Shown: one piece after another, positions 39,987 through 51,979 of the stretch
How the letters are laid out: each line of letters begins with the position of its first letter
How positions within the stretch are numbered: the stretch's first letter is position 1
Assembly (NCBI RefSeq): GCF_000426705.1
Contig: NZ_KE384559.1
Location: 87,538-151,537 of the forward strand
Source of the DNA: Spirochaeta cellobiosiphila DSM 17781
Lineage (GTDB): Bacteria; Spirochaetota; Spirochaetia; DSM-17781
Direction: 5' to 3'
Length of the DNA: 64,000 nt
Made by a program: the position numbers and the translations under genes
The notes under the pieces: generated by a model
What the model saw: the letters and a program-made list of their open reading frames with translations, nothing else
Databases searched by the model: none
Told to the model about the DNA's origin: nothing

Positions 39987-41891
39987 TCAGTCATTATGAG
40001 TTATGTTTTCTCTAAGTAAATTAAGGAAAGTACTATTTCTACTCTTAGCATCATCAATAAGAGCTTTATAAGAAAGTAAGAAGAAATCAACTTGTATACG
40101 GTTAGCCTGTGAAGGGTCTTTCTCATAATCTGGTATAAATGTCTCTTGTCCATACCAATATTCATCACTGGAAAACATCTTATGATATCGGTCACTTCCA
40201 TATAGATCGCGTTTTAGACTATCGCTTAATCCTAATACCCCATAATACCAAACACGATTTATCTTACTTGGGTATTCTTCAGATAAAACTTTAGCTCTAT
40301 CAACGATTTGTTTGACTATTATAGGTAGATCATTTTTATGTGGGCTTTGTCCTTTCAATTCGATAATGACCACATCTGCGCTTTTCGTCTGTTCAGAATC
40401 TCCGTTTTTAGAAAAGACAATCGATATATCGGGTCTATCATCATTTCCTTCTCTCTCATCATCAAGACTCTTGAATAACTGCTTTATGGACTGTTCACTT
40501 AAGACAGTAGAAAAACTCATAAATTTATCATCAAACAACCAGATGTTGTTACGTTGCAGTTCAATTTCTGCATCAACATATACATCTTTTTGAGGAATAA
40601 TTACGTTATGAAGCAAAGTTTCATCATTTTCACCATTTTTCTGGAGTATATCAATTTTTCTGATCACTGTCTCTCTATGGAGAATGTATTCTGTAAGGAC
40701 TCTTGATGAAATTTTCAAAGCATTGTCAAATTGGGAATCAGATAAGTTCTGTAAATCCAGTAATGCTTTTTTATCTTTGTTATATTTTGTATGAGCATCA
40801 TCAATGAGGCGGTCCTTTCGATACAGAGTAACCCCAGTACTCTCTAAATACCCTATTAGGAATGGGTACTTTTTGTTGATCTCCCGTATAGTCTTTTTAT
40901 TTTCAGATTTAATTTCTGGGATTTTCTCTTCTACCATATTGATAATGTAAGACTTAAATATCTCTTCTATTTTTTTTAGTTTATCGTTATCAATATCAAG
41001 ACCAGATCTATCTGGTTTCGACTTAAAAATCTTTTCCTCTGAATGTAAGAGAAATATCACTCTAAAACCGGGTGGTAGTAAATCGATTATATTGACTTCA
41101 AAAGACCTACCGTCAACACTTATCGCGGTGATGATGCTTTGCTCATAGCTATTTATCGGGCTATAATCATTTTCAATCTTATACAGTATTTTAGTCTTGG
41201 GATTAGCAATATCAAAAAGTTCCTTCCCAGATAAATCAATATCCCTCGTATCAAAAGTGGGGAAATCAGTAGAAGATAGTTTCACATCATTACTGACTAA
41301 ATCATCTTCACCTTCTTGTTCATCTCGTATCGTTATTACTACATCTTTCCCTTTTTGTTTGAGGGTATAAAATTCAGATAAGAATTTTGCAAATAGAAAA
41401 GACCTTACATAGTGAACATCAATAAACTTACTATCATGAATCTTCTGATGAATAAGTCGTTTGTACATCAGCTCTGTTCGAGAAATTTGTTGAGAACTTT
41501 TTTCTTCCTTATATAAGTCTGGTGCACTTTTCGGATTAAAATCATCTGTAAAATTAATGTCTCTCTTCAACCATTCACCGTTAAACTGATAGGTACTACT
41601 TATTTTAACTTCACCGTAGTACATTAGATAAACAACACGACCAAGTCCCTTATGTTCAATATCAGCCTTCTTCCCTAAAACAGAAAATCGGTTGAAACTA
41701 CTTTGGTTAAAACCAGTTCCATTATCAATAATGGTAAGCTCAGCATCGCTAATCTTCTTCTTTTTTTTGATAATGATATCTATTTTGTCAGCACCAGCAT
41801 CTAATGAGTTCTTAACGGCTTCTTCATAAATATTCATGAAATTAGGGTTTCGATATAGATAGCTCTTCAAGTGGGATAATTCAGATTCCAT
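39987..41891 (-). CDS. GHKL ATPase with C-terminal nuclease-like domain
   Basis: A 634-residue protein, last in the operon. The N-terminal 200 residues are a GHKL (Hsp90/MutL-type) ATPase: N-box YEEAVKNSLDAGADKI (Glu24 region), G1 IDNGTGF (55-61) and G2 HKGLGR (80-85). Residues 200-480 are helical and unrecognised. From about 440 to the end the sequence fits a PD-(D/E)XK nuclease: RPDISIVF with Asp488, then DVVIIELKG with Glu511 and Lys513. GGAAAGGAG stands before the ATG, 31 bases after the Res stop. A MORC-like or MutL-like clamp with nuclease is the likely design. Activity is inferred from motifs only. Confidence 0.75.
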   Translation of the reverse strand: MESELSHLKSYLYRNPNFMNIYEEAVKNSLDAGADKIDIIIKKKKKISDAELTIIDNGTGFNQSSFNRFSVLGKKADIEHKGLGRVVYLMYYGEVKISSTYQFNGEWLKRDINFTDDFNPKSAPDLYKEEKSSQQISRTELMYKRLIHQKIHDSKFIDVHYVRSFLFAKFLSEFYTLKQKGKDVVITIRDEQEGEDDLVSNDVKLSSTDFPTFDTRDIDLSGKELFDIANPKTKILYKIENDYSPINSYEQSIITAISVDGRSFEVNIIDLLPPGFRVIFLLHSEEKIFKSKPDRSGLDIDNDKLKKIEEIFKSYIINMVEEKIPEIKSENKKTIREINKKYPFLIGYLESTGVTLYRKDRLIDDAHTKYNKDKKALLDLQNLSDSQFDNALKISSRVLTEYILHRETVIRKIDILQKNGENDETLLHNVIIPQKDVYVDAEIELQRNNIWLFDDKFMSFSTVLSEQSIKQLFKSLDDEREGNDDRPDISIVFSKNGDSEQTKSADVVIIELKGQSPHKNDLPIIVKQIVDRAKVLSEEYPSKINRVWYYGVLGLSDSLKRDLYGSDRYHKMFSSDEYWYGQETFIPDYEKDPSQANRIQVDFFLLSYKALIDDAKSRNSTFLNLLRENITHND

Positions 41892-41922: not shown

Positions 41923-44637
41923 TTACAGTCCTACCTCATACTGCTCAGCTAATGTCATAAATCCCATCTGCATTGTGATTTTGTCATGCGGGATGAGAAT
42001 ATACTTCCAAGGCTTCTCCCCATGCTCCGCATTATACTCAGTCGCATGTTTACAGTACTGGATAGCTGCCTTGGCTTTATCCTGAACATCAGCAGTTTGA
42101 ATATCCTTCTCGGCCTTAACCTCAATGAGATAAATACAATCACCAGTCTCAACTACGAAGTCTGGCTCATACTGCTTAGGATTAAGAACTCCCCATGTGA
42201 TATTGAACTGGTGAGGTGCCGGTCTCAGCCATTTCAGAACAGGACTTCCTGCTTCCTCTTCCAGGATGAATGCGAAGTCCTTCTCACTCTTAGAATCGAA
42301 CTTAAGTAGAGAATGGCAACTCTTCTTAAAACCATTAAAAACACAGCTTTTAATCCTTGAGGCTGGTTCTATTGTCTCAGAATAGAGATGGACTTTATCA
42401 GCTGCAATCTTACTCATGTTATGGGGTCGTATTTCAGAAAAACTCGTAGAAATCTCAGTTCTAAAACCCTTTGCGGTAAGAAAGAAATGAGGCTTCATCT
42501 GAGTATAGATAAACTCTGCTATATTCTTCTTCCGGTTCCAGATGATATTGTCGACGGCTTCCTGGTCACGACCTTCTTTGATGCTATCGAGAGCCTGACC
42601 TGATAATTTGTACAGAAGGTCGGCATGTTCATCATAATCCACTTCATTGTAGTTGATGAGTTCGTTGACTATGATATCCCGATGGTCTGAAACATCCCGG
42701 TGCCTACCTCCCTTAAGAAGTAGCTTAATTCCTTCTTTCCGGGTTAAAACTTTTTCTTGTAAGTCTTCCGATATCTCGCTTAACCTCAGATTTTGAGTAT
42801 CCAGGTCGAAGTCTCTGAAACCTACCTCGAAATCTTCTTCTGGGACAATCGAAATACGGGGAATCTTAATTGAGCTGGTGATCTCATGTTCATAGACCCG
42901 CTGAATAGCCACTTTTACCTGCTCAACAATCTCTTCTCGATTGTCAAAAAGCTCCTTCTGGTCTCGGCTATCCATTTCCCTAAGGACCCGTTCAACAATT
43001 GCTTGAGTGACTTGTTCTTTTTTAAGGTCCTCAGCTTTATGGATTGTATTCTGAGTATGTAAGTAAGTTGAAACCTTTCTGACTAAATCTACCTCGACAA
43101 AGACTCTCTTTCGTTTTTCTTCCTGACTAATATCAGCTTCTTCAATAGCCTTTGCTGTCTCATCAAGTTCTTCATTTAATGAGTTGCCAGCTGTAATAAC
43201 TTCTTGATGTCCTTCAAGTTCTAAATCACCCATATCAACAATCTGCGTGGTGTTGATGAGAGAATCCGGTTTATTGGCCTCTTCAATAATCGCCTGGAAT
43301 TTATCATGGGAAACAATATAGAGCTTATCCATTGCATCATCATTCATTCTCTTTCCGAACGGAAGGCGTAAACCACGACCAATCGTCTGCTCTGTAAGGG
43401 TTGCGGATGCAGATGTTCTCAAAGGGATGATTGTATAGAGATTGGTGACATCCCATCCCTCTTTCAACATATTTACGTGAATTACTATCTCTATTGAATT
43501 GTCAGGATCTTCTACATTAAGAAGCTGCTGGATATTTTCATCCTTTTCAGAACCTCGCTGATTAGAATGGATTTCCATAACCTTATCGGCATAATACCCA
43601 TCAAAGAAGTTTTGCTGTTTTATTAAATCCATTAGCTGACCGGCATGAGTAGTGTCTTTAGCAACAACCAAAACAAACGGTTTAACTCGTGGGAGGTTGT
43701 TATTCCGGCAGTAGATATCTATTTCCGGTTTAACATTCTCATGAATACGGATTCCATCTTCAAGTTTAATCCTATCTAATTCCTCAGGAGTATGCTGTGA
43801 TGGGTCAAAATCCTTTCGGGTAACAACAGCTGGTTCTTTGACATACCCATCCTTCATTGCCCTACCAAGAGGATAATCAAATACCACATTCTTGAACTTA
43901 ATAGCATTTGACCCCTGTTGTGTCTGAGGAGTGGCAGTAAGTTCAAGACCAAGGATAGGATTGAGCTCATTAAGTACAGCCATTCCTCTATCAGCACGGT
44001 AATGATGAGATTCATCCATAATCAGCACCAAATCTTTTAAGCCCATCAGGTACTGGAAGTAGGATTCTCCCAGATATTCAGATAGGCGTTTCATCTTGGG
44101 CTCTTTACCACTTCTGGTTTCAGCGTTGAGCTTTGAGATGTTAAAAATGTTGATATTGATAGTTTCCATACCTTCAAACTCTTGAGCATACCTGGTCTGA
44201 TCCACAATCTTGGTATTGTAATTATCTCCGGTGATTATTCTGGGAGGGTTCTGGGCAAAATCAGCAATCCCTTTGAAGACATATTTCTCACAAGCCGGAT
44301 TGGAAAGGTCTTCAATCAGCTTATTGTAAACAGTAAGGTTTGGAGCAAGAACGAAGAAGTTAGAGATACCACTTTCGATAGCAAGATAAGAAATGAAGGC
44401 GCCCATAAGCCTGGTCTTACCTACACCTGTAGCAAGAGCAAAACAGATGGAAGGGAAATCCCGTTCAAAGTTAGTACAGGTACCGAATTTATCATGCACA
44501 TGTTCCAAAAGAGCATTTAAGTCGGGCGATTTTGAGAGCTCCATTTCATCAAGTATATTTGCAAGAATTTCAAGGCTTTTTGCCTGTGGAGTTCTTAGAG
44601 AAAGCCGTTGTGTAATCATCTGTGCTGTTTTATTCAT
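41923..44637 (-). CDS. Type III restriction enzyme, Res subunit
   Basis: This 904-residue helicase-nuclease has the type III Res layout. Walker A is ATGVGKTR (69-76), motif II is MDESHH (207-212), and motif VI is TIGRGLRLPFGKR. Residues from 823 hold the PD-(D/E)XK nuclease (EPDFVV with Asp826, then LIEVKA with Glu839 and Lys841). In such systems Res needs Mod for site recognition and cuts after ATP-driven contact of sites. The start overlaps the Mod stop by 8 bases, so both are made together. It is complete and looks active. Confidence 0.9.
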   Translation of the reverse strand: MNKTAQMITQRLSLRTPQAKSLEILANILDEMELSKSPDLNALLEHVHDKFGTCTNFERDFPSICFALATGVGKTRLMGAFISYLAIESGISNFFVLAPNLTVYNKLIEDLSNPACEKYVFKGIADFAQNPPRIITGDNYNTKIVDQTRYAQEFEGMETININIFNISKLNAETRSGKEPKMKRLSEYLGESYFQYLMGLKDLVLIMDESHHYRADRGMAVLNELNPILGLELTATPQTQQGSNAIKFKNVVFDYPLGRAMKDGYVKEPAVVTRKDFDPSQHTPEELDRIKLEDGIRIHENVKPEIDIYCRNNNLPRVKPFVLVVAKDTTHAGQLMDLIKQQNFFDGYYADKVMEIHSNQRGSEKDENIQQLLNVEDPDNSIEIVIHVNMLKEGWDVTNLYTIIPLRTSASATLTEQTIGRGLRLPFGKRMNDDAMDKLYIVSHDKFQAIIEEANKPDSLINTTQIVDMGDLELEGHQEVITAGNSLNEELDETAKAIEEADISQEEKRKRVFVEVDLVRKVSTYLHTQNTIHKAEDLKKEQVTQAIVERVLREMDSRDQKELFDNREEIVEQVKVAIQRVYEHEITSSIKIPRISIVPEEDFEVGFRDFDLDTQNLRLSEISEDLQEKVLTRKEGIKLLLKGGRHRDVSDHRDIIVNELINYNEVDYDEHADLLYKLSGQALDSIKEGRDQEAVDNIIWNRKKNIAEFIYTQMKPHFFLTAKGFRTEISTSFSEIRPHNMSKIAADKVHLYSETIEPASRIKSCVFNGFKKSCHSLLKFDSKSEKDFAFILEEEAGSPVLKWLRPAPHQFNITWGVLNPKQYEPDFVVETGDCIYLIEVKAEKDIQTADVQDKAKAAIQYCKHATEYNAEHGEKPWKYILIPHDKITMQMGFMTLAEQYEVGL

Positions 44638-46291
44638 TGTCTCCCTCCAAGTCGAAAAGTTCAGCCTGACCAGCTACATATTTGGGTTTTGGTTCAGTAA
44701 CTGAATCTGGAAAATTCTCTTCATTATCATCAATCGGGATGTTGATAATGTTGAGGGAGTAATCATCCTTACCAAACTCACATTTTCCCATAAGCATTTT
44801 GGGAATTTTCTTTATAGTGATGTTGGGAAAGTGAGAATCATTAGCATTGAATGCTTTACAGCATATCAGAAGGGATTCTCCTTCCTTCATCTGAGAATGA
44901 ATGTATTCAACATGCTCCTGAGTCAGAAACTCTGTTGTTGTAAAGATGAAGTCTTGCTCAGTACTTTGACCTTGCTTCCAGTAGATATCTGAGTCAGGGC
45001 TATACCTAAACCCTTCCTGTTTTGCCATTGCAGCAGCAAGCATATCCGCATTGTACTCTTGGTTTATTACCCAATTCCCGTAATTATCTTTATTTAGAAG
45101 ACTGGGAGCAAGTGAATAGAACTTATATCCACCTCCACCTTTCCAAACCACTGATTTAGATATACCTCCTTGATCTTCACCAGAAACAACCATATCCATA
45201 CGAGGTTTACAATGAGTTAAACAATGTTCTCCAAGCTCAATCCCGATCCATTTTCTTTCCATTTTATGAGCAACAGCTGAAGTGGTACCAGAACCGAGGA
45301 ATGAATCCAGTACTAAATCTCCGGGGTTTGATGCAATCTGTAACACTCTCTCAATCAATCGTTCAGGTTTTGGCGTTGAAAATGGATCTTTATCATTGAA
45401 TACAAGAGATTCTTTTCTTGCTTCTTGGTTATTACCTACATCTTGATGAAGCCAAACAGTAGTAGGTATTTGCCCCTTCATAGAGATTGATTTAAAGTTT
45501 TTAAATCTTGGAACACTATTTGTTCCGTTCTTACCCCAGTACACTAAATCATTTAATACATTCTCTTGGTGCCTTTCTTGATTATATCTCCAGACCGCAG
45601 TTTCCTTAGGCCAGATTTCTTCTCCTGTATTAGGATTCGTTATCGGATAGTATAGGTTAGGTCGTTCGTCCTTATTCTTATTACATGTATAGTCAACAGA
45701 AATCCATGATCCCCGTGGGTCATTATCGATATTCTTTCGAGTTTTACTTGTTTTCGAATCAATAGGAATCCGGTTAGGATACCAGTTTAACTTGTCCTTT
45801 GCGAAAACTAAAATATGGTCATGCATATCACTCAACCATTTCGCATCATTCTGTGGTGAGAATTTTTTTTGCCAAATAACATTCGCAATAAAGTTAGATC
45901 GACCAAATACCTCATCACAAAGAATTTTTAAATAATGACTTTCATCATCATCAATTGAAATCCAAATTGACCCTTCATTCGAAAGCAAATTTCTTAGTAG
46001 GATTAGTCTGTCACGCATTAAATTAAGCCAAACAGAATGTTCTAAACCATCATCATAATGAGCAAAAGCAGAACCAGTATTATAAGGGGGATCGATAAAA
46101 ACACATTTTATATGACCAGCGTATTCTTGCTCCAACGCTTTCAATGCAAGCAGATTATCACCATGGATAAGCATATTATCTGTTTCCGAAACTCCATACG
46201 ATTTTTCCGGGTCTTCTATCAAGATTCTCGGTTCCAGTTTCGGTCGAGTATTCTTTCCAATCCATGTAAGTTCTAATCGCTGTTTTCCCAT
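44630..46291 (-). CDS. Type III DNA methyltransferase, Mod subunit
   Basis: This 553-residue beta-class adenine-N6 methyltransferase sets the DNA sequence recognised by Res. The catalytic motif IV is IDPPYNTGS (66-74), and motif I follows far later, VLDSFLGSGTTSAV (327-340). That order is the beta type used by Mod proteins. The variable region between them (about 145-310) is the likely target recognition domain. Mod is usually 600 or more residues, so this is a short version. AGAGGAT precedes the ATG; 3 bases separate it from the SNF2 gene. Methylation protects host DNA. Confidence 0.9.
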   Translation of the reverse strand: MGKQRLELTWIGKNTRPKLEPRILIEDPEKSYGVSETDNMLIHGDNLLALKALEQEYAGHIKCVFIDPPYNTGSAFAHYDDGLEHSVWLNLMRDRLILLRNLLSNEGSIWISIDDDESHYLKILCDEVFGRSNFIANVIWQKKFSPQNDAKWLSDMHDHILVFAKDKLNWYPNRIPIDSKTSKTRKNIDNDPRGSWISVDYTCNKNKDERPNLYYPITNPNTGEEIWPKETAVWRYNQERHQENVLNDLVYWGKNGTNSVPRFKNFKSISMKGQIPTTVWLHQDVGNNQEARKESLVFNDKDPFSTPKPERLIERVLQIASNPGDLVLDSFLGSGTTSAVAHKMERKWIGIELGEHCLTHCKPRMDMVVSGEDQGGISKSVVWKGGGGYKFYSLAPSLLNKDNYGNWVINQEYNADMLAAAMAKQEGFRYSPDSDIYWKQGQSTEQDFIFTTTEFLTQEHVEYIHSQMKEGESLLICCKAFNANDSHFPNITIKKIPKMLMGKCEFGKDDYSLNIINIPIDDNEENFPDSVTEPKPKYVAGQAELFDLEGDNE

Positions 46292-46294
46292 ATT

Positions 46295-49147
46295 CTATCC
46301 TCTCAATTCCCATCTAATGGTGAATAATTCTGTTTCAGTTATTTCTTGATTCATCCGGCTCTCAATGTTATCGATAAGCCCTTCTTTCTTCTCTTCTATA
46401 TCATCCTGAGCAGTGAAAAGAAACTTTCTCTTCTCGTTCCGTTGAGATTCAAGCTTCTTAATTTCCCTTTGCTCAGATACTTTGGCAGCTAATTCAGTAA
46501 TCTTTCTCGATTCAGTCTTCCGAGTCTTAATCTCCACGTCCAACTGCTTAATTTCAATCTCCAGAGACTTCTTCAAGTCGTCGGCCCAGGCATCAAGTTT
46601 TGTCATTTCTTCATCAAAGAACTTGGCATTCTCTTCTGCCAACCAGCCAGTAAAGCCTTTGAAGAGAGATTTATAATTCAGTTCAATGGCATCTGGGGCA
46701 GAATCTACATCTCCAACGATCTTGCCATCTACAGAGAAAAGACGTCGGGCGATATCGGGCTCAACAACAGTTCCATCATCACAGATACAGGAAACAATAA
46801 TCTCATCAATAATCTCAAAGCTATCGATTGTCACCTTCTTAACCATCATCCAACCTGATTTCCCAATAAATGGTTCAATAACTGAGACCTTTGGAATACC
46901 GGTGTAATTGAGAACAATTTCCACATTACTTGTTTCAAGATTCTGAGCCTGTGTAATTGCATAATGAGCCAGAGGTAGTCCAATCCTATATCGATGACCA
47001 AGGTTTTCATCCTGAGAAAGAGTATACCGACCGACCGTTGCATCTACTGCATCAGGAACTGTATTTAATACAAAACCACCTTCCTCGAAGTCTGCATATC
47101 CAGCCAGGGTTTTCTTGGTTATATCAAAGAGTCTCTGCTTATGTGTGGACAGAAGAGATTCACTACGCTCTTTTGCCACCTTAAGTTTCTCATGAACTTC
47201 TTCATCAAAGTTCTCAAGCAACTTTTGCCTGGTATTGTGCATCTCTGTGGTAATGCTATCTTGGAATTGTGATTGAAGCTCATCAAATGCGTCTTTGATT
47301 TCATCCTGTGTCCGGCAGTTCTGATAAATGGCTAATACCTGCTTTTCAAAATCCACACCAGATTCAATAGCACCAAGAACTTCATCAGAGACACCGAAGA
47401 CGCCTTCAAAGAGTCGAAATTTATCATTCAGGAGTTCATAAACACGAACATCTGCTGCATTCTTCCTATTCAGGAAGTTGAGGACAACAACATCAAACTT
47501 CTGACCATACCGGTGACAACGACCAATTCTCTGTTCTATCCTCTGTGGATTCCAAGGCATATCATAATTTACGATGAAGGAGCAGAATTGGAGGTTTATA
47601 CCTTCAGCAGCTGCTTCTGTTGCTATAAGAATAACAGCCTCTTCTCGGAAGTAGTCGACCAATGCAGCGCGCATATCAGCAGTCTTAGAACCAGTTATCT
47701 TGTCAGTACCTTTATGCTTCTCAAGCCAGTTCTTGTAGACTTCCTTTGACTTCTCATCATTATTAGAACCATTGAAGAGTACTATTTTTCCTTCATATTC
47801 AGTTTCTGAAAGGATTTGCAGGACATATTCCTGGGTTCTCCTGGACTCGGTGAATATAACAGCTTTCTTAACTCCCCCAAGTTCTTCTATCTTTTGAAAA
47901 CCACTGGAAAGAGCGGTAAGAAGCTTTTCACCCTTTGCATTCTCAGTAATAGAGATGGCAAGGTCTCGGAAGTCTCTTAAGTCATCTATCTCTCTCTGGA
48001 TTGCTTCAATATCTTCCTCTGTATAGAGGTTGCCTTCTTCATCTTCCCATTCATCAGATTCTTCAGACAGACCTTCATAATCTTCAGCTACTTCTTCGAG
48101 GATTTCTTCTATCCAGGAACTATCGCCAGTCTGAACCTTACTTAATCCTTTCAGCTTCTTTTCAAGCTTGGTCATGATAGAGTTCAGAGCACCGGCAATG
48201 GCATAAGTTGAGGAGGAGAGAAGCTTTCTCATTACCAAGGTCATGAGTGTTCTTTGTCCTGCGGGTAGAGCATTTAGATTGGGACGTTGAAGATACTCAG
48301 AAACCCATTCATACAGCTGCTGTTCATCGTCAGACGGGATAAACTCCTGGGTCATCGGTATTCGTTTTGTATAGCGGATATACTCAACAACCTGCTTACG
48401 CAATGTCCTTTTGCATACAGGTTTTAGTCTCTCTTTAAGATGGAGGAAAGCATTATCACCATTGAGATGTGAATACTGAGCTTTGAAGCTCTTCAAATCA
48501 CCAAAAGCATACTCATCAATGAAACTCACCAGTCCATAAAGCTCAAGAAGAGAATTCTGAAGTGGTGTTGCTGTAAGCAATATCTTCTTGTAAGGATTGA
48601 CGGCATTCTTAATGGTATTAGCAATGACATTATTCTTCTTATAAACATTTCTAAGACGGTGGGCTTCATCTATTACTATCAGGTCCCAGTTTGTCCTGGC
48701 GATATAATCAGCCTTATTCCTGGCGAAGTGATATGAGCAAAGAACAATCTCATTGGTATCGAATGGGTTAAAGTTTCCAGATTTGATTGCTGCGTTGAAG
48801 CTTTTTGTCTCAAGGATGACTGATGGGATGTAAAACTTATCCATCAACTCCTGAGACCACTGTTTACGAAGGTTTGAGGGCAGAATTATGAGAATTTTCC
48901 TCTTTCGCTCAGCCCAATTCTGGGAGATGATGATACCAGCTTCGATAGTTTTACCAAGACCGACCTCATCTGCCAGTATTGCTCCCTTCCCAAGAGGGGA
49001 TTGGAAGGCGAATAAAGCAGCTTCCACCTGATGAGGGTTGAGATCGACCTTTGCATCCAGAATCGTGTTGGTAAGCTTTTCATAGCTGTTGGCCGGTGAG
49101 CGTTTTACTAATTCATGTGCAAAATACTTAGCATGGTAGTTGGTCAT
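46295..49147 (-). CDS. SNF2-family helicase/translocase of the restriction operon
   Basis: A 950-residue SNF2/RapA-like ATPase. Helicase motifs: DEVGLGKTIEAG (60-71), VIDEAHRLRN (DEAH 160-163), LLTATPLQNS. A second lobe carries ATEAAAEGINLQ and PQRIEQRIGRCHRYGQ. An acidic insert lies between the lobes (LSEESDEWEDEEGNLYTEED). The C-terminal 170 residues are a long coiled coil (KSLEIEIKQLDVEIKTRK). A SNF2 partner is not part of normal type III systems; DrmD of DISARM is a comparable phage-defence SNF2 protein, but other DISARM genes are missing here. It overlaps the HTH gene by 4 bases. Confidence 0.88.
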   Translation of the reverse strand: MTNYHAKYFAHELVKRSPANSYEKLTNTILDAKVDLNPHQVEAALFAFQSPLGKGAILADEVGLGKTIEAGIIISQNWAERKRKILIILPSNLRKQWSQELMDKFYIPSVILETKSFNAAIKSGNFNPFDTNEIVLCSYHFARNKADYIARTNWDLIVIDEAHRLRNVYKKNNVIANTIKNAVNPYKKILLTATPLQNSLLELYGLVSFIDEYAFGDLKSFKAQYSHLNGDNAFLHLKERLKPVCKRTLRKQVVEYIRYTKRIPMTQEFIPSDDEQQLYEWVSEYLQRPNLNALPAGQRTLMTLVMRKLLSSSTYAIAGALNSIMTKLEKKLKGLSKVQTGDSSWIEEILEEVAEDYEGLSEESDEWEDEEGNLYTEEDIEAIQREIDDLRDFRDLAISITENAKGEKLLTALSSGFQKIEELGGVKKAVIFTESRRTQEYVLQILSETEYEGKIVLFNGSNNDEKSKEVYKNWLEKHKGTDKITGSKTADMRAALVDYFREEAVILIATEAAAEGINLQFCSFIVNYDMPWNPQRIEQRIGRCHRYGQKFDVVVLNFLNRKNAADVRVYELLNDKFRLFEGVFGVSDEVLGAIESGVDFEKQVLAIYQNCRTQDEIKDAFDELQSQFQDSITTEMHNTRQKLLENFDEEVHEKLKVAKERSESLLSTHKQRLFDITKKTLAGYADFEEGGFVLNTVPDAVDATVGRYTLSQDENLGHRYRIGLPLAHYAITQAQNLETSNVEIVLNYTGIPKVSVIEPFIGKSGWMMVKKVTIDSFEIIDEIIVSCICDDGTVVEPDIARRLFSVDGKIVGDVDSAPDAIELNYKSLFKGFTGWLAEENAKFFDEEMTKLDAWADDLKKSLEIEIKQLDVEIKTRKTESRKITELAAKVSEQREIKKLESQRNEKRKFLFTAQDDIEEKKEGLIDNIESRMNQEITETELFTIRWELRG

Positions 49148-49329
49148 CTGCCGTTTTTAGTATCCCTTTGTTGTTTTACCCATTCATCAACTTCTTTCAG
49201 TTTGAACTTCCAAAGCCGTCCTAGTTTATGAGCAGGAATATCCTTTCTCTGAATCCATTTGTAAAGTGTGTCTTTCTTAACACCGAGATACTCAGCTACT
49301 TCTTCGACCGAGTGCCATCTGTCTTCCAT
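49144..49329 (-). CDS. Excisionase-like HTH regulator of the restriction operon
   Basis: A 61-residue single-domain protein of the HTH_17/excisionase type, with WHSVEEVAEYLGVKKDTLYKWIQRKDIPAHKLGRLWKFK covering the full winged-HTH. It is the first gene of the operon and overlaps the SNF2 start as ATGA. Such proteins either guide excision of mobile elements or control restriction operons. The operon position and close coupling favour a transcription regulator; the lack of an integrase argues against an excisionase. Confidence 0.85.
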   Translation of the reverse strand: MEDRWHSVEEVAEYLGVKKDTLYKWIQRKDIPAHKLGRLWKFKLKEVDEWVKQQRDTKNGR

Positions 49330-49362: not shown

Positions 49363-49390
49363 ATAATAAAGAAAATCGTTGATTTTTCAA
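49363..49390 (-). promoter_or_regulatory. Promoter of the restriction operon
   Basis: On the minus strand TTGAAA (49385-49390) and TATTAT (49363-49368) are 16 bases apart, 34 bases before the HTH start. The -35 overlaps a TTGATTTTTCAA inverted repeat, a possible binding site for the HTH protein. Confidence 0.5.
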
Positions 49391-50203: not shown

Positions 50204-50239
50204 AGGATTCCATGAGAATGCTCAGGAAACCTTTTGACT

Positions 50240-51979
50240 ATGAAATTAATCAATCCAGAAAACTCTTATAGCAACAACTTAGCAGGAAAAGTAGGTCCTG
50301 TAATAAACGAAACCCATCTTTCAGATACTACCGTAAATTGGTTGGTAGAGGTAATATCATCAATTTATGACGATGATCTCGACCAAGCATTATTGTTAGC
50401 TCAATATATAAAAATATTAGGCGGAAAAGAGGAAATACCAGAAGATTATACAATCTTCCGTCTTTTGCTAACAATCAAAGGGTATATTAATGCTCCGAAC
50501 TTGCCTATAAAATCCAATCATGAGTTGGAAGAAGAAATCAAAAGTTTTCTTTCCTCAAATTATTCACCTGATTACCACAGCTTCATGCACTCGTTTATTC
50601 AAGAACGAGAAGATCGACTTTATTCAGGAGGTATGGCGCTCTACATTCACACTCATGAAATAGCTGTATTTTTGCTGAAAGAAAAGCTTATTGACTACGC
50701 AAAATTCATAAAGATTGAAGATGTACCTAAGGCACTCTACCACTTGTGTAAAAATGGGAAGGAATGGACACTGGAAAATTTTACCATAGATGAAAATCTA
50801 TATAAGTTTGTAAAGGGATGGGGGTTCTGGATGTTCGCCTTGAGAACTGCTCTTCCAGAAGACCAATTTGAAGAAATATATACCAAAGTAGACGAAACCT
50901 TTCTCATAAATTATTTGAAAAAGGAGTCTGGTAAATTTCTATTCAAATATACAGATATCTATCTGTCCAATGTTCTTGAGGTTGCAGGATATCCAAGTAC
51001 AAGACATATTTCCGCCTCTTCTTTTGAATGGCTGTTTGAAAAGCAACAGGCATATTTTAATCTTCTTCTCGATGAATTCAACAGGATTCAATTTGATGAT
51101 GAAAATCTTAGTGTTCTTCTTCGGTCAGCTCATATCGCATATAGGTATAAGACTGACACAATGCCAGAATCAATAAGAAAAGAACTTACATATTTAAGCC
51201 AAAAAGCAATAGGAAACTTCAGGTCCTCAATTAAAGATGCTGATTACTCGACACATGAGTATTTAAAAGGATTAAGTACTGTAAATGAAGCGGTAAATTT
51301 TTTGTGCTATTTCAGTTCACCAGCTGAGGGAATTAAGCAATTAGTTCAGCTTCTTCGGAATTATGGAAAAGTTTCCATAAACGATGACCTAACATTTCTA
51401 TTGCCAAAGCAGAGGGATTATCCTTTTTTAGCCCCACTTCAACAGCAAGAGCATCCTGATCAAGAACCACCTCTAAATGCGGAATGGTTTATTTCTAAAA
51501 CTGAATGGATAATCAGTACATTCTTTGAATTAGGTGAAGCTGATATCGATGTTGCGAGAGATGACTTGGCAAAGTTCTTTGGAACACGACTTAAAACAAA
51601 AAAAGGAGTTAAAACTGAGACTCCAAAAGAGTCCGATTTAATAGAACCAAATTCTATCTGGCGTACAGCCTATTTAAGCTGTATTAGAGCGCTTCACTGT
51701 AATCCAGGTGGGAAATTACATCAAACCATTAACTTTTCCCGCAACTCAGACCCGGATGCAGATGTGAAATCTGAAGCGGCAAAAGCTTATAAAGAAGTTC
51801 GTCATAACAACCCTCTTCCTACTAATATGGAAAGGGTTCTTACAATAAGAAGAGTATTCTGGTATTTAAGGCAGGCATATTATGTTTCCTTATTAGGAAT
51901 CAACAGTCTGGATACCAGGGGTGCTCAGCGCACTTACTCAAAGGAGGTAGAACGATGTAAAGTAAGAATGAAGAAATAA
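50240..51979 (+). CDS. Uncharacterised island protein, 579 aa
   Basis: I do not recognise this protein. It is a soluble, mostly helical 579-residue product without signal peptide or membrane span. It is rich in Leu, aromatic and acidic residues (TTVNWLVEVISSIYDDDLDQALLLAQYIKIL, ALYIHTHEIAVFLLKEKLIDYAKF). HTHE at about 137 and RRVFWYLRQAYYVSL near the end are striking but not diagnostic. It heads the island's plus-strand cassette. AGGA lies 12 bases before this ATG and 6 before a TTG two codons earlier (50234), so either start may be used. An antiviral or toxin-type effector is a guess from context. Confidence 0.7.
   Translation: MKLINPENSYSNNLAGKVGPVINETHLSDTTVNWLVEVISSIYDDDLDQALLLAQYIKILGGKEEIPEDYTIFRLLLTIKGYINAPNLPIKSNHELEEEIKSFLSSNYSPDYHSFMHSFIQEREDRLYSGGMALYIHTHEIAVFLLKEKLIDYAKFIKIEDVPKALYHLCKNGKEWTLENFTIDENLYKFVKGWGFWMFALRTALPEDQFEEIYTKVDETFLINYLKKESGKFLFKYTDIYLSNVLEVAGYPSTRHISASSFEWLFEKQQAYFNLLLDEFNRIQFDDENLSVLLRSAHIAYRYKTDTMPESIRKELTYLSQKAIGNFRSSIKDADYSTHEYLKGLSTVNEAVNFLCYFSSPAEGIKQLVQLLRNYGKVSINDDLTFLLPKQRDYPFLAPLQQQEHPDQEPPLNAEWFISKTEWIISTFFELGEADIDVARDDLAKFFGTRLKTKKGVKTETPKESDLIEPNSIWRTAYLSCIRALHCNPGGKLHQTINFSRNSDPDADVKSEAAKAYKEVRHNNPLPTNMERVLTIRRVFWYLRQAYYVSLLGINSLDTRGAQRTYSKEVERCKVRMKK

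Follow-up and report, generated by a model that had tools for sequence, protein, structure and literature searches.

What does a GHKL ATPase contribute to a restriction-modification (R-M) operon in which the Res subunit already carries a nuclease motif of its own? The question arises from the 3' end of an apparent operon in the window, the 64,000-nucleotide stretch of the Spirochaeta cellobiosiphila DSM 17781 genome that was analysed (NZ_KE384559.1, positions 87,538 to 151,537). We propose, with a probability of about 0.72, that the last gene encodes a paraMORC3/Shedu-I-D-like, ATP-gated DNA nuclease, acting as an accessory (second) effector of the R-M operon. The features of the locus, all on the minus strand and in window coordinates, are the following.

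39987..41891 (-): GHKL ATPase with an S5-like middle domain and a predicted C-terminal PD-(D/E)XK-like nuclease (paraMORC3 / GHKL-Shedu architecture), 634 aa; reading frame uninterrupted and complete
41567..41891 (-): GHKL motifs for nucleotide binding within residues 1-108 (E24, N28, D31, D56-N-G-x-G60, G82-x-G84)
39987..40709 (-): C-terminal domain, residues 395-634 (RPD488 ... E511-x-K513 ... Q528)
41923..44637 (-): Res, 904-aa restriction subunit of type III (Walker A at 71, DESH at 208 and, in the C-terminal part, the nuclease motif PD..EVK at 825-841)
44630..46291 (-): Mod, 553-aa methyltransferase of type III (DPPY at residue 67)
46295..49147 (-): SNF2 helicase, DrmD_b-like, 950 aa (677 bits)
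49144..49329 (-): small helix-turn-helix (HTH; excisionase/MerR-like) protein of 61 aa, whose gene opens the operon
49363..49390 (-): possible promoter of the sigma-70 type ahead of the operon, TTGAAA-16-TATTAT, from a scan that was overall not above chance

The five genes (HTH, DrmD-like SNF2 helicase, Mod, Res and, last, the GHKL-nuclease) are co-directional and tightly spaced: two neighbouring pairs overlap, by 4 and 8 bp, and the other two are separated by 3 and 31 bp, as would be compatible with a single operon. The HTH call was made by reading the sequence, and is supported by a plasmid operon (L086) in which the gene at the corresponding position is annotated as HTH. Mod and Res scored 659.6 and 605.6 bits, respectively, with the PADLOC type III models; the two genes adjoin each other and their methyltransferase, helicase and nuclease motifs are intact, as in type III R-M systems. 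Assignment to DISARM was not supported, with the helicase reaching 677 bits against a DrmD_b cut-off of 950 bits and the other operon genes giving no DrmB or DrmC match. Likewise, PglZ and BrxC matches, which would have indicated BREX, were absent among the operon genes. The first-pass annotation had described the GHKL protein as sharing an operon with a Res carrying its own nuclease, and this agreed with the intact PD..EVK motif of Res. A replacement scenario, in which the GHKL protein makes up for a nuclease lost from Res, was rejected for the window, where Res retains PDF..EVK; an automatic regex missed the motif in several Res homologues, and the intact-motif result refers to the window Res. 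Upstream of the operon and divergent from it lies a gene for a 581-aa protein (50234-51979, plus strand) with no Pfam or PADLOC match.

The N-terminal module of the GHKL protein is well defined. GHKL ATP-binding motifs at the N-terminus and a likeness to MutL- or MORC-type clamps had both been claimed for this gene, and both claims were borne out. The motif residues, to which T139 can be added, are intact, and E24, N28, D56, G58, G60, G82 and G84 are invariant in an alignment of 50 relatives. The domain was significant by itself, matching Pfam HATPase_c_3 with an E-value of 4e-7 and 30.6 bits (cut-off, 25 bits). MutL was the top or near-top match in the NCBIfam and PDB profile searches, the family profile matching MutL structures with E=1.6e-5. 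When the whole AlphaFold model was submitted to Foldseek, it matched SMCHD1 (3.8e-10), yeast PMS1 (1.0e-9) and MORC2 (1.8e-8), in alignments of about 370-410 columns that span an S5-fold domain behind the GHKL domain. The N-terminal half of the model also matched Hsp90, indicative of a GHKL plus S5-type middle domain arrangement, and the S5 residues R262 and R295 are kept in 49/50 and 50/50 homologues, respectively.

The C-terminal domain had been read as a restriction-type nuclease on the basis of Asp488, Glu511 and Lys513. These residues are all where the first-pass annotation had placed them, near the C-terminus, and are invariant across 50 homologues that come from many phyla and share 19-35% identity with the window protein. 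Other conserved residues of the domain are W451 (50/50), P487 and Q528 (48/50 each), R486 (47/50) and also D454/D455. The spacing of the motif was rejected as proof of a nuclease, since shuffled sequences yield the same spacing: the loose D...(D/E)xK pattern occurred in 100% of the shuffles and the strict PD...hh(D/E)xK pattern in 4.9%. Hence, it is the conservation of these residues, and not their spacing, that provides strong sequence evidence for a putative nuclease motif.

The AlphaFold model, built from 52 aligned sequences (pLDDT 81, pTM 0.70), predicts a helix at 466-475, strands at 489-494 and 505-512, a helix at 521-539 and a strand at 544-552. D488 is located at the start of, or just before, the strand 489-494, E511 lies within the strand 505-512, K513 comes directly after this strand, and Q528 is found in the long helix after K513, with another strand beyond. 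Such an order of strands and helices appears PD-(D/E)XK-like, and the model neither lacks this core nor places the three residues apart; its confidence is low around residues 437-446 and 479-486. Residues 395-634 modelled separately gave a pLDDT of 80 and a pTM of 0.80. Foldseek with this C-terminal model returned nothing at E<=0.001 against the PDB or against viral models. The top PDB matches, all below significance, were carbonic anhydrases and a few nucleases or nuclease-like folds of low probability (EcoO109I, McrBC), which weigh neither for nor against a nuclease. The alignment profile of the domain matched PDB sequences by chance alone (eIF2-alpha), and a Pfam scan of 46 C-terminal domains gave weak PDDEXK_9 (best 0.00099), HSDR_N (0.0025) and NotI (0.0091) hits amid other noise. 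The restriction-type proposal was thus upheld in its invariant motif, strand order and weak PD-(D/E)XK profiles, while a significant fold match was not obtained. We base the predicted nuclease on these three elements and on homology to the VcSduA-like clade, not on a fold match.

The scan of 84,980 genomes recovered 108 relatives, of which 80 were kept. The window protein falls inside a clade of 54 rows with an SH-aLRT support of 100. It lies outside the BREX subclade, alone on a long branch (2.27), and given this branch its function may have drifted. A second clade contains proteins from Sinorhizobium and Vibrio fluvialis, 670-710 aa in length. The GHKL-nuclease is very sparse, being found in 3/395 genomes of the class, one a weak match, and in 4/296 of the phylum; no relatives were found in phage records and viral contigs. 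In another genome of the class (L005:4077-9837), the gene sits just behind recF and has as neighbors one gene for an HNH-like protein and one for a methyltransferase-like protein of 877 aa.

The second clade links the window protein to an experimentally studied one. VcSduA of V. cholerae, reported in 2025, defends as an independent single-gene system, and its E27A (ATPase) and K557A (nuclease) mutants both lose phage defence (PMC12137116). We have compared VcSduA itself via the V. fluvialis homologue, which we infer to be VcSduA-like from its sequence: E27 is present and the ExK lysine is at 556, which fits VcSduA E27 and K557. The two clades aligned over their full length with an hhalign probability of 100% (1.6e-50, 571 columns), and the C-terminal domains alone with 99.6% (3.9e-24). 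In these alignments E24 was paired with E27, and E511/K513 with VEIK 553-556 of the V. fluvialis homologue. A direct comparison of the C-terminal domain of the window clade with Shedu SduA_C was weak (E=0.017, probability 2.6%), whereas the VcSduA-like clade gave a moderate match to Shedu SduA (83.5%, 8.3e-6); the Shedu connection of the window clade is therefore made through the VcSduA-like clade. At E<=0.1, neither the window protein nor any of 46 clade members matched PF14082 (DUF4263 / SduA_C), the VcSduA-like clade likewise failed PF14082, and the window protein gave no PADLOC SduA match. A V. fluvialis plasmid (L090:1-10016) carries a type I R-M operon followed by two adjacent Shedu-type genes, one for a classical SduA and one for a VcSduA-like GHKL protein.

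We have then considered the genomic settings of the relatives. Type 3 BREX hosts 18/57 of them, located between brxC, which is usually accompanied by a Schlafen/AlbA_2 gene, and pglXI, for example at L028:10001-11890 and in L010, L023, L042 and L058; these copies occur in Pseudomonadota, Verrucomicrobiota and Thermodesulfobacteriota. Two plasmid BREX-3 operons (L111, L112) have no GHKL gene, one carrying a Schlafen gene only and the other neither. Type I systems with the gene between hsdM and hsdS were seen at L014:8205-13105 (4-bp overlap with hsdM) and L059:8159-13200. In L102 the gene adjoins HsdR, and the 607-aa gene product found there is an AAA_5 protein, not HsdM. Further copies lie beside type ISP enzymes (L026, L043), one of them 3 bp behind a 1646-aa type ISP restriction-modification enzyme (L043:5058-11866), beside an Eco57I-type enzyme (L041) and in IIG-like systems. 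For many relatives, a partner was not evident within the DNA examined around the gene.

The DrmD-Mod-Res operons found on plasmids have a variable slot between helicase and Mod that carries defence-like cargo: Abi and a transposase (L086), an AAA ATPase and DUF4276 (L087), AIPR and a toxin-antitoxin pair (L088) or a 527-aa protein of unknown kind (L089). A window-type Res is present in 8/395 genomes of the class, and the GHKL gene was unseen in the other seven Res neighbourhoods, some of which end at contig ends. That DrmD-Mod-Res operons elsewhere hold other cargo or no GHKL gene, that type 3 BREX operons may have or lack it and that its other settings vary argue for the GHKL-nuclease being an optional module of its host systems. 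The earlier suggestion of a second effector beside the Res nuclease is in this respect supported by the shared operon and the intact Res motif; as to whether it acts jointly with Res or alone, the relatives favour an optional module.

Other explanations have to be weighed against this one. The GHKL protein could be an obligatory subunit of the Mod-Res-SNF2 machine that couples ATP state to the translocating complex and whose nuclease cuts only if recruited by Res or the helicase. Such cooperation was proposed by Iyer et al. for MORC and paraMORC proteins (PMC2292703), the gene is co-directional with Res and lies 31 bp behind it, and relatives are found inside other ATP-dependent translocating operons (hsdM/hsdS in L014 and L059, type ISP in L043). 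We nevertheless regard an obligatory role as unlikely: related Mod-Res and DrmD-Mod-Res operons exist without a GHKL gene, the tree shows the type I partners dispersed (4 changes for 4 rows), many relatives stand alone, and VcSduA protects by itself (PMC12137116).

A DNA repair or housekeeping function, with a MutL-like endonuclease lying beside the R-M operon by chance and being no defence effector, would suit the N-terminal half, which has its best matches in Pfam and among structures with MutL-type proteins, and the RecQ helicase gene found just downstream on the opposite strand. It is made very improbable by the sparse distribution given above, by partners that differ from host to host and by the share of relatives in BREX, all of which point to a mobile defence gene. 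Least probable of all is that the C-terminal domain has a PD-(D/E)XK sheet but serves as a sensor or is inactive, leaving an ATP-driven DNA clamp only. The lack of a significant fold match in the PDB and viral models and the two low-confidence stretches of the model would be compatible with it, but the fixation of D488, E511 and K513 in 50 homologues is unexpected for a lost active site, and defence by VcSduA needs K557 (PMC12137116).

If the protein is an accessory ATP-gated nuclease, as we favour, its working may be pictured from its relatives. ATP binding would pair two copies via the N-terminal GHKL domain, as in MutL, MORC and Hsp90 relatives, and pairing would close the S5/middle domains into a clamp that holds either DNA or a signal induced by phage. 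Closure would in turn activate both C-terminal nuclease domains, and invading DNA would be cut with the invariant D488, E511 and K513, an activity suggested by the VcSduA mutants. The SNF2 helicase, Mod and Res would form a complete methylation-sensitive restriction system in themselves, and the GHKL-nuclease would be a mobile add-on at the 3' end of the operon, delivering a second attack once the main system has been evaded; this add-on may also work independently. A broader and rather doubtful extension is that ATP-driven, methylation-guided machines (type 3 BREX, type I, type III and type ISP) draw on this clade for a general plug-in effector, which occupies a fixed slot and is triggered by the host translocase. 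One clamp-nuclease would then serve mechanistically different systems.

The design tested as a stand-alone protein in VcSduA is found, here and in relatives, integrated into R-M and BREX operons. This opens a direct question, namely whether the clamp-nuclease serves as a backup to a restriction system or is itself driven by one. E24 and K513 are the residues to mutate, and nature offers for comparison both operons that have the gene and operons that lack it.

Among known systems, bacterial and eukaryotic MORC, SMCHD1 and MutL/PMS2 have the GHKL + S5 ATPase module in common with the window protein, and are not known to carry a C-terminal PD-(D/E)XK domain bearing its motif. MzaB of the MZA system is another GHKL-containing defence protein, with a match (E=0.04) confined to the ATP-binding site; the protein does not match MzaB outside the GHKL motif, and partner genes of an MZA system are absent. 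Compared to a plain type III R-M system (Mod-Res), the operon adds the SNF2 helicase, the HTH gene and the GHKL-nuclease.

The GHKL + nuclease architecture is itself already known, the published family being paraMORC3 / GHKL-Shedu. ParaMORC3 was described in 2008 by Iyer, Abhiman and Aravind with a C-terminal nuclease, an R-M setting and stand-alone copies (PMC2292703). Common features are the N-terminal GHKL domain, the S5-like middle domain, a C-terminal domain with D-ExK, here with a predicted restriction fold, a sparse distribution and an occurrence in R-M operons or alone. With respect to the E-D-ExK signature of paraMORC3, D and ExK are invariant here and the strand order fits; the agreement concerns the D-ExK part, and the fold search was not significant. 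The text of PMC2292703 names neither type 3 BREX nor a DrmD-like/type III operon as a paraMORC3 setting. Auxiliary effectors of PD-(D/E)XK and Shedu type are recorded for BREX in a 2026 survey, whose text makes no mention of MORC or GHKL proteins (PMC12839542). Judged from the open-access literature, the type 3 BREX slot of this clade may be unreported. VcSduA, of Shedu type I-D, has the same domain order, and E24 and K513 correspond to its tested E27 and K557. The window protein belongs to a separate, sister clade and is shorter (634 aa vs about 670-710 aa), and whereas VcSduA is a stand-alone single gene, the window protein is encoded at the end of an R-M operon.
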